DNA of 64,000 nucleotides from an uncultured Bacilli bacterium (GTDB taxonomy: Bacteria; Bacillota_I; Bacilli_A; RFN20; CAG-449): contig CALVJL010000003.1 in assembly GCA_944332075.1 (NCBI GenBank), positions 1 to 64,000 on the forward strand, written 5' to 3'. The translations under genes and the position numbers were made by a program. This document shows positions 1,808 to 41,933 of the stretch, one piece after another. Position 1 is the first letter of the stretch. Every line of letters starts with the position of its first letter. Under the pieces are notes generated by a model. The model did not search any database. It was not told the origin of the DNA and saw only the letters and a program-made list of their open reading frames with translations.

Positions 1808-2668
1808 ATGGAAACTTTAAAACTTTACAATGGGGTAGAAATCCCCGCCAATGGATTTGGCGTTTATCAAGTCAGCAAGGAAGATTGCAAAAAGAGCGTC
1901 TTAGCAGCCCTAAAAGCCGGGTATCGTCATATTGACACGGCTCAATCTTACTTTAACGAAGAACAAGTCGGAGAAGCATTGGCCGAAACCGATGTGCCAA
2001 GAAAAGACATCTTCTTGACCACAAAGGTGTGGATCGATCATTATGGGGAAGACAAGACCTATGATTCGGTTATTGAATCCTTAAGAAAATTAAAAACAGA
2101 TTATCTCGATTTGATTTTGCTTCACCAGCCGATTGGAGATTATTACGGTGCTTATCGAGATTTAGAAAAACTTTATAAAGAAGGCAAGGTCAGAGCTATC
2201 GGAGTTTCGAACTTCTATCCTGATAGGCTCGTAGATATTTGTTTATTCGCCGATATTAAACCGATGGTTAATCAAATTGAAGTCAATGTCTTCAATCAGC
2301 AAATCGAAGCCAAAAAGTGGGCTGATAAATACGGTGTCATCTTGGAAGCTTGGGCACCTTTTGCAGAAGGTAGAAATAATATGTTCCATAACGAGACCTT
2401 GATGAGTATTGCCAAGAAACACGATAGAAGCGTTGCCCAGGTCATTCTTCGTTGGCTCTATCAAAGAGGGATCGTCTCTTTGGCCAAATCAACCCATGAA
2501 GAGCGAATCAAGGAGAATTTCGATATCTATTCGTTTGAACTCGACGGCGATGACATGAAGCTCATCGAGACTTTGGACACGAAGACATCATCTTTCTTCA
2601 GCCATCAGGATCCTGCTATGATCGAGTGGTTCGGACAGCTGATTGTCGAAAGAAGAAATAAACAATAA
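1808..2668 (+). CDS. Aldo/keto reductase (2,5-diketo-D-gluconate reductase type)
   Basis: The 286-residue protein is full length for the AKR superfamily. It shows GYRHIDTAQSYFNEEQVGEA (catalytic Asp and Tyr), the TTKVW strand with the catalytic Lys, LILLHQP with the catalytic His, and the C-terminal NADPH region containing AKSTHEERIKENF. It should reduce aldehydes or ketones in the cytosol with NAD(P)H. It is encoded between two flavodoxins downstream of a divergent LysR regulator, suggesting an inducible detoxification or redox-stress cluster. A GGAGG precedes its ATG inside the end of the first flavodoxin gene. Confidence 0.92.
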   Translation: METLKLYNGVEIPANGFGVYQVSKEDCKKSVLAALKAGYRHIDTAQSYFNEEQVGEALAETDVPRKDIFLTTKVWIDHYGEDKTYDSVIESLRKLKTDYLDLILLHQPIGDYYGAYRDLEKLYKEGKVRAIGVSNFYPDRLVDICLFADIKPMVNQIEVNVFNQQIEAKKWADKYGVILEAWAPFAEGRNNMFHNETLMSIAKKHDRSVAQVILRWLYQRGIVSLAKSTHEERIKENFDIYSFELDGDDMKLIETLDTKTSSFFSHQDPAMIEWFGQLIVERRNKQ

Positions 2669-40189: not shown

Positions 40190-40240
40190 AAAGTACTGCT
40201 TCCCCTATATAGTTTATAGGAGGAACGCATGAAGTACTTT
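40190..40240 (+). promoter_or_regulatory. Hairpin sequestering the start of the C39 peptidase gene
   Basis: Three nested complementary blocks enclose the start: AAAGTACT (40190-40197) with AGTACTTT (40233-40240), TTCC (40200-40203) with GGAA (40222-40225), and CCTATA (40204-40209) with TATAGG (40215-40220). The GGAGG ribosome binding site and codons 2-4 are in the stem, and the ATG lies in an internal loop. There is no T run, so this looks like a translational control element rather than a terminator. Confidence 0.65.
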
Positions 40241-41398
40241 GTAAGACAAAATTTCCCTAAAGAATGTGGTTTTGTTTGCCTAAAGGTTCTTTTAAGTAAT
40301 TTACATAATGATGAAAATTACTTGTTTTTGCCATCTCCAGAAATCAATGAAGATTACTCTTTTTATGATTTGATTAAGGAAGGTGAAAAATATAATTTAA
40401 CATTGCAAGGCTTTGCCATAGATACCCTAGAAGAAATCACTTTACCCTGCATTGCTTTGATTACGTTAGATTCATCAGATCATTATGTTGTAGTCTATAA
40501 TTGCAATAAAAAATATCTCTGGATTTTTGATCCTGGTTTAGGACGAGCAAAAATTTCAAAACCGAAATTTCAAAGTCTTTCAAAAAATTGTTATTTATTG
40601 GTTAAAAGTTATAATAGGACAAAAATAAAATCAAAGTTTTTCGATAATCAAAAATATTATCATCTCTTGCAAATTATTAATGCGTTTCTTCAAATCTTTT
40701 TTCTATTTTTAATCTCTTTTCAAATTAGAAATATCAATGTTTTGTTTTTTATTAACGTAATTTTATTCATTGCATCAATTATATTTAATCAAATTATACA
40801 TTCTATTTTTATGCGTAAGTTTGATAGAGAAATTATTTATCCGTTTTTAAAGTTAATTGATAATATTAGTTATCAACAGGCACATAAATATATTGAAAAT
40901 GAGTATGAATTAAAAAAATCATTGTTCATGCAAAATATTTCATCTTTAAATATTTTTTTGTATATCGGTTTCATATTTCTAATTTTATTAATTAATGATT
41001 ATTGGAATTTTATTAGCGTTATATTTATATCAATCTGCATTGTTTTCAAGTGCTGGTTCACTTATTGTCATCAAAGAAAATTTTTCTCAAAAATTGAATC
41101 TTTAGAGCAAAGTGAGAAAAATTATTCCATCAATTACCGTATTGCTGACGAATTATCTTATCGCTACGCTTTTTTGATGCAAATTATAGATGCCATTTCG
41201 ATAGCGGTTATTGCTGCAATTAATATAGCTATTTGTTATTTTCGCGGTTATATACATCTATTTATCTATTATTTCTTCTTGGAAAAAATTCTTTATGAAA
41301 ATATGTATAATGCCTATAATCTTAAAGATAAAAAGGACTTTATTCGTAAAAGAATAGCTTATCATTTCACAATGAGCCACTACTATAAAAATAAATAA
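40229..41398 (+). CDS. C39-type peptidase fused to an ABC-exporter-like membrane region without ATPase
   Basis: The 389-residue protein begins with a C39 peptidase domain like that of peptide-processing ABC exporters: Gln7 and Cys13 in QNFPKECGF, His85 in DHYVVVYN and Asp101 in FDPGLG give the complete active-site set. Residues about 145-350 are hydrophobic and have several membrane segments in the place of the transporter membrane domain. There is no Walker A, signature or Walker B: the nucleotide-binding domain is absent and the gene ends with a normal TAA. It may cleave leader peptides at the membrane. No peptide substrate gene is visible nearby, and the neighbours are replication and ribosome-maturation genes. 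Confidence 0.7.
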   Translation: MKYFVRQNFPKECGFVCLKVLLSNLHNDENYLFLPSPEINEDYSFYDLIKEGEKYNLTLQGFAIDTLEEITLPCIALITLDSSDHYVVVYNCNKKYLWIFDPGLGRAKISKPKFQSLSKNCYLLVKSYNRTKIKSKFFDNQKYYHLLQIINAFLQIFFLFLISFQIRNINVLFFINVILFIASIIFNQIIHSIFMRKFDREIIYPFLKLIDNISYQQAHKYIENEYELKKSLFMQNISSLNIFLYIGFIFLILLINDYWNFISVIFISICIVFKCWFTYCHQRKFFSKIESLEQSEKNYSINYRIADELSYRYAFLMQIIDAISIAVIAAINIAICYFRGYIHLFIYYFFLEKILYENMYNAYNLKDKKDFIRKRIAYHFTMSHYYKNK

Positions 41399-41465: not shown

Positions 41466-41933
41466 ATGAATATTGAACTTACTTTTGAAAATCAGACTAG
41501 CGAAGAATTGTCTGAGTATGAGAAAAAATATCATTTATTAATTGACACTATTTTAAAACATCTTAATCTGGATGGTAATTTTATGTTAGAAATTGATTTA
41601 GTTGATGGTGAGACTATCCATCAAATCAATAAGCAATATCGTAATATTGATCGAGAGACCGATGTCATTTCTTTCGCATTTGAAGATAATAAAGAAAACT
41701 TAAAAGCTCCAAGTGATTATCCGCGCGATCTCGGGGAAATTTTTATTTGCGTCCCTGTAGCTCATCGTCAGAGCGAAGAATATCAGCATTCTTTTGAAAG
41801 GGAAATGATGTTTTTAGCTTGTCATGGCGTCCTTCACTTACTTGGATACGACCATATGAAACCAGAAGATGAAAAAGTGATGTTTGCTATTCAAGATGAA
41901 ATAATGAAAATTTTAAATTTGGAGGTTAAATAG
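41466..41933 (+). CDS. ybeY: Endoribonuclease YbeY, 16S rRNA maturation
   Basis: The 155-residue protein has the metal-binding motif HGVLHLLGYDH near residue 120 and TDVISFAF upstream. It is a zinc-dependent ribonuclease for 16S 3'-end maturation and quality control. It heads the conserved ybeY-cdd-era-recO-glyS-dnaG-rpoD order, and cdd follows directly. Confidence 0.95.
   Translation: MNIELTFENQTSEELSEYEKKYHLLIDTILKHLNLDGNFMLEIDLVDGETIHQINKQYRNIDRETDVISFAFEDNKENLKAPSDYPRDLGEIFICVPVAHRQSEEYQHSFEREMMFLACHGVLHLLGYDHMKPEDEKVMFAIQDEIMKILNLEVK

Follow-up and report, generated by a model that had tools for sequence, protein, structure and literature searches.

A gene of an uncultured Bacilli bacterium, located in the 64,000-nucleotide stretch of DNA that was analysed (the window), encodes a C39 peptidase joined to an exporter-type membrane region, and its product looks, on sequence, like the first half of a PCAT-type exporter. 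We consider it fairly probable that this product is a PCAT-derived, membrane-anchored maturation protease for a small, conserved membrane protein, acting without export powered by ATP; its cleavage of that protein is inferred.

The C39 gene and its setting

The gene is an intact open reading frame (Table 1) and is the sole C39 match in its own genome in a profile search. Pfam Peptidase_C39 covers residues 3-127 of the protein (E 7.4e-18), and the original prediction that all four C39 active-site residues are present was borne out, Q7, C13, H85 and D101 being the only invariant columns in 29 diverse homologues. The predicted membrane segments after this domain are also there: hydropathy gives five clear ones (146-164, 172-190, 237-255, 261-279 and 319-337), and a sixth (about 340-358), clear in many homologues, stays below the hydropathy threshold in the window protein. 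The spacing of the helices, 2+2+2 in the window protein and its homologues, is like that of full-length exporters. An AlphaFold model of the protein was too poor for use (mean pLDDT 46.6).

Table 1. Features of the C39 locus in the window and of the candidate substrate gene outside it
Feature	Position	Strand	Remarks
Start-site hairpin	40190..40240	+	SD paired in the inner stem; upstream AAAGTACT and codons 2-4 form the outer stem
Shine-Dalgarno sequence (SD) AGGAGG	40218..40223	+	Paired in the hairpin
C39 peptidase with exporter-type membrane domain, without ATPase	40229..41398	+	389 aa
Peptidase C39 domain	40235..40609	+	Codons Q7 (40247), C13 (40265), H85 (40481), D101 (40529)
Membrane region	40664..41302	+	Helix pairs 1-2, 3-4, 5-6; cytoplasmic loops 2-3 and 4-5 shortened; hydropathy, hhalign
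ybeY	41466..41933	+	Kept downstream neighbour (ybeY-cdd-era); TIGR00043, 3.6e-44; context, outside the mechanism
Leader protein, own genome	contig C3 116531-116704 (= L141:1423-1596)	-	Between valS and radC; MRELTIEEMKNLKGG followed by ELTVAAVMAVMVAAIVAVIVYRLFMSSEGSTTLPGGFKFTWE

Family labels in what follows come from the genome search tool: f1 is the window's own family, f2-f8 belong to the same order and f11 upwards to the same class. The absence of a nucleotide-binding domain, which had been noted originally, holds for the window open reading frame and its f1, f4 and f5 homologues, and no ABC ATPase was found in the downstream gene throughout this group. A frameshifted ATPase downstream of the window gene was looked for and none was found; there is no room for one, because ybeY begins 67 nt after the stop codon.

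The protein was found in 65 of the 98 relatives searched, nearly always as an open frame of about 380-450 aa, too short for an ATPase. Among 62 sampled genomes of the order, C39 was found in 59, and the three gaps consist of two assemblies without ybeY and one genome with the f2 form described below; more generally, genomes without a C39 match mostly lack ybeY in the assembly too (G090, G414, G011, G012, G034 and G035). The same architecture, at about 370-430 aa, occurs almost throughout the order, which consists of gut bacteria, nearly always just 5' of ybeY, and the arrangement C39-ybeY-cdd-era seen in the window is kept in nearly all loci read. The gene upstream of C39 varies between loci (dnaI, a yqfD-like gene, deoC-rpsU or dnaJ). 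The original prediction was correct in placing the gene between dnaI and ybeY, but its description of these as unusual surroundings was misleading, as the ybeY site is ancestral across the order and the sister family f20 and it is the upstream neighbour that changes. In some f1 loci the protein encoded before the C39 gene resembles, by eye, the sporulation protein YqfD (L006:521-1453, plus strand; L024:2688-3638, minus strand).

A candidate substrate between valS and radC

The usual interpretation of double-glycine leaders and C39 exporters is bacteriocin or pheromone export. The original prediction had suggested a search for double-glycine leader peptides, and such a protein was found. No leader peptide adjoins the C39 gene at the loci, and a small upstream open reading frame in f4 loci was rejected as a substrate because it is rpsU. 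The search used a single degenerate DNA pattern together with a small number of leader profiles. In the window's own genome the pattern gave three matches and its reversed control also three; under the filter used, no match had a suitable short open reading frame. The general leader model TIGR01847, run on 13 genomes, gave no match in this genome. It was profiles of double-glycine peptides from f17, a sister family with full-length exporters, that led to the valS-radC protein in the focal order. The f17 peptides are 44-56 aa long, often paired, and lie beside the exporter; at several loci (L093:2302-2439 and 2456-2620, plus strand; L094, L095, L099, L101 and L107) the exporter is followed by a conserved pair whose members both end near a conserved Cys, and a neighbour at L094 weakly resembles Mycoplasma MAG1140 (NF045999).

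The candidate substrate, encoded outside the window and unlinked to the protease gene, has 57 aa, a double-glycine leader and a single helix. Its leader in the own genome reads L-12, E-8, M-7, L-4, GG, a sequence match at every recognition position to the published C39 leader consensus of L-12, E-8, L-7, V/I-4, GG (PMC6363468), and L-12, E-8 and G-1 are invariant in our alignment A6. The region after the helix contains a conserved Lys/Arg (Y[KR]), with further basic residues in f20, so that by the positive-inside rule the mature peptide is predicted to lie N-out, C-in. No Pfam or NCBIfam model matched the protein over its cut-off, and a PDB search with the peptide profile gave no convincing match. 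In most of the f1, f2, f4 and f5 loci read, valS and radC flank the peptide gene, and in f20 it lies beside one or both of them; with its own profile the peptide was detected in 61 of the 62 sampled genomes of the order. Tandem copies are seen in some f20 genomes (L209, L210).

The protease might instead mature a different target, such as a signalling peptide or membrane protein, in which case the valS-radC peptide would be present by coincidence, as a vertically inherited gene. The two genes are unlinked, as this would allow, and the leaders of f4 and f25 depart from GG: in f4 (L173-L191) the -2 Gly is often P, S, A, T, V or C, with L-12, E-8 and G-1 mostly kept. A homologue of the peptide also persists in f3 (G019) although the protease there has lost its catalytic Gln, and some f25 genomes (G330, G338) have peptide homologues and no C39 match. 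Against such a coincidence stand the complete fit of the own-family leader to the C39 consensus, the finding that in f20 the peptide occurs in the same 17 sampled genomes as the C39 exporter, and the failure of TIGR01847 to give any further candidate in the own genome. Co-occurrence of C39 and the peptide is phylogenetically confounded, and we regard another principal target as unlikely while giving it real weight.

Probable descent from a full-length exporter

The family profile matches PCAT1 across both the C39 and the membrane domain, and hhalign against full-length C39 exporters of the same class aligned 396 columns (E 1.4e-31), with the large gaps falling at the two cytoplasmic loops. Measured between hydropathy peaks, the median helix 2-3 spacing is 64 in the ATPase-less family versus 78 in full-length exporters, and the helix 4-5 spacing 65 versus 88.5; helix 3-4 is about equal (22 versus 23.5), and helix 1-2 is also shorter (25 versus 37). 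The cytoplasmic loops that would touch an ATPase are consequently about 14 and 24 residues shorter. In ABC exporters, the coupling helices that contact the ATPase sit on these loops.

Full-length and further reduced forms occur at the same chromosomal site. In f20, a full-length exporter of 679-687 aa, with its ATPase, lies directly before ybeY, while in f2 the protein at the ybeY site is only 167-171 aa long and consists of C39 with all four catalytic residues and one C-terminal hydrophobic segment. In a maximum-likelihood tree, in which branches are long, the 44 ATPase-less rows of f1, f4 and f5 form one group (support 100/99), and the ATPase-less copies of f8 fall on the other side of the tree, possibly representing a second, independent loss of the motor. 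These f8 proteins (L118:1238-2527; L119:2850-4175) are encoded away from ybeY, beside an apparent importer-type ABC operon.

The original prediction offered leader-peptide maturation with a partner ATPase as one role; the maturation part gained a candidate with the valS-radC protein, but the partner did not materialise. A working exporter with its ATPase in trans, still exporting the cleaved peptide, would be in keeping with the six exporter-type helices retained in f1, f4 and f5 and with the 49 PF00005 matches in the genome. Among the best 30 of these 49, however, no orphan exporter-type ATPase was found: by a C39-exporter ATPase profile, the exporter-type ones (150-229 bits) are frames of 508-653 aa fused to their own membrane domains, with membrane segments before Walker A in all cases in which this motif could be located, and the stand-alone ATPases score at most 133 bits. 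The family-wide shortening of the ATPase-contact loops, and the persistence of the peptidase with just one helix in f2, also argue against ATP-driven export, which we judge improbable.

A conserved hairpin at the start site

The ribosome binding site and start of the window gene had been predicted to be buried in a hairpin. This proved correct, the hairpin having a folding energy of -20.6 kcal/mol (z = -4.1), with none of 200 shuffled sequences as good, and the masking of the SD is conserved order-wide. The congener L003 has substitutions on both sides of the outer stem: its start reads ATG AAA TAT TTT in place of ATG AAG TAC TTT, with matching changes upstream, and since the codon changes are synonymous the protein sequence MKYF is unaltered. 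Among the 38 C39 genes of the order that have a recognisable SD, the SD is paired upstream with a probability above 0.7 in 76%, compared with 0 to 33% for other genes of the same loci. When the SD was held fixed and the upstream bases were shuffled, p was at most 0.05 in 20 of the 38 genes and about 0.01 in 13 of them; for each control gene the number was 0-3. In the stems beyond the SD core, T-A, A-T, G-C and C-G pairs occur in mixed proportion, a tabulation that illustrates the stem and is not an independent covariation test, because the pairs came from each minimum-energy fold.

Several of the hairpins lead into a U-run before the ATG, like an intrinsic terminator, and no convincing promoter was seen by eye inside the hairpin loop. 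As the hairpin hides the ribosome binding site, translation would be low unless the hairpin is opened or transcription starts inside it; one possibility is that it blocks translation from read-through transcripts. Several full-length exporter genes are also preceded by hairpins, and the element may therefore predate the loss of the motor. At two f20 loci (L096, L098) the layout that masks the start is different, a long hairpin of about -20 kcal/mol pairing the first codons of the exporter with the upstream region.

The faster divergence of the C39 gene compared with its neighbours (81% versus 96-98% identity) and the degenerate look of the f3 copies, which are short, C39-only or nearly so, and without the catalytic Gln (L204:2042-2437, minus strand; L197:993-1463, plus strand; L208:1720-2103, minus strand), might suggest a decaying exporter remnant without function, but we consider this highly improbable, since the frame is retained intact order-wide with an invariant catalytic quartet and a conserved hairpin, and dN/dS against the congener (about 0.23 in C39 and 0.12 in the membrane region) shows that both parts are under purifying selection. 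For f1, f4 and f5, decay is contradicted by these conservation data; where the original prediction had raised random decay in relatives, the relatives show conservation instead. The window protein is a maintained and active-looking protein, not a product of decay.

Proposed role and relation to known systems

We propose that the gene derives from a PCAT-type exporter, comprising C39, membrane domain and ATPase, whose ATPase was lost in the ancestry of the order, and that the remainder survives as a membrane-anchored, leader-removing cysteine protease whose main substrate would be the 57-aa valS-radC protein. The C39 domain would bind the leader helix at the inner face of the membrane and cut after the second Gly, between Gly15 and Glu16, and membrane insertion of the single-helix core would follow and need no ATP. 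What was the exporter membrane domain would now be an anchor or docking site, and its shrinkage to one helix in f2 would be possible for that reason. Whether the whole amounts to a housekeeping pathway, in which C39-6TM-ATPase gave rise stepwise to C39-6TM and then C39-1TM, as a membrane-tethered leader peptidase for a conserved, hitherto undescribed single-helix mini-protein, with expression under the control of the conserved SD hairpin, is in our estimate evenly poised. A pilin-type system, in which the peptide would be a small pilin and C39 would replace the prepilin peptidase, is suggested by the short leader ending in Gly before a hydrophobic helix but has very little to recommend it, as the own genome, with both peptide and protease, has no match to PF00437 (type IV pilus or secretion ATPase) and the matches in f1 and f5 are mostly weak.

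With the PCAT / AMS transporters (PCAT1 of Clostridium thermocellum, ComA, TIGR01193 and the Mbov_0121 family, NF045998) the window protein shares the N-terminal C39 domain, complete with catalytic Cys, His and Asp and oxyanion Gln, and a homologous six-helix membrane domain. Their substrates carry double-glycine leaders, and a protein with a matching leader sequence is present in this genome. The window protein is not itself a PCAT because the ATPase is missing; its cytoplasmic loops are shortened, and its gene stands without an adjacent substrate gene in a housekeeping position before ybeY. Against the Mbov_0121 model it scores 36.2 bits, below the curated cut-off of 500. FapD, a C39 maturation endopeptidase (NF058616), is likewise a C39 protease without an ABC ATPase, but differs in substrate class and lineage, and the window protein gives only a weak C39 match to its model (26.6 bits, below the curated cut-off of 330). 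We know of no exporter-type six-helix domain in FapD. The C39-like domains of HlyB-type exporters also place a C39 fold on an exporter (PMC6363468); in them the ATPase is retained and it is the catalytic Cys that has gone, the reverse of the window family. Class IIb bacteriocins (lactococcin G, cerein/lactobin) share their leader type with the valS-radC protein, and f17 has such a peptide pair beside a full-length exporter. The valS-radC protein, however, falls below the curated cut-offs of TIGR03949, PF10439 and TIGR01847, and has a conserved tail, fixed synteny and no neighbouring exporter.

In the open-access papers to which our literature search was confined, nothing on point was found for a C39-membrane protein without an ATPase, for the valS-radC peptide or for C39 in Erysipelotrichia. 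Both genes hold fixed chromosomal sites across the order, the peptide shows good conservation, and the exporter has kept its protease while losing its motor, so that the C39-peptide pair has the look of core cell biology. If the proposed reading is true, it would provide a clear example of a protease that evolved from an ABC exporter, it would add a new family of small membrane proteins, and it would mean that C39 matches in gut genomes need not signal antimicrobial peptides.
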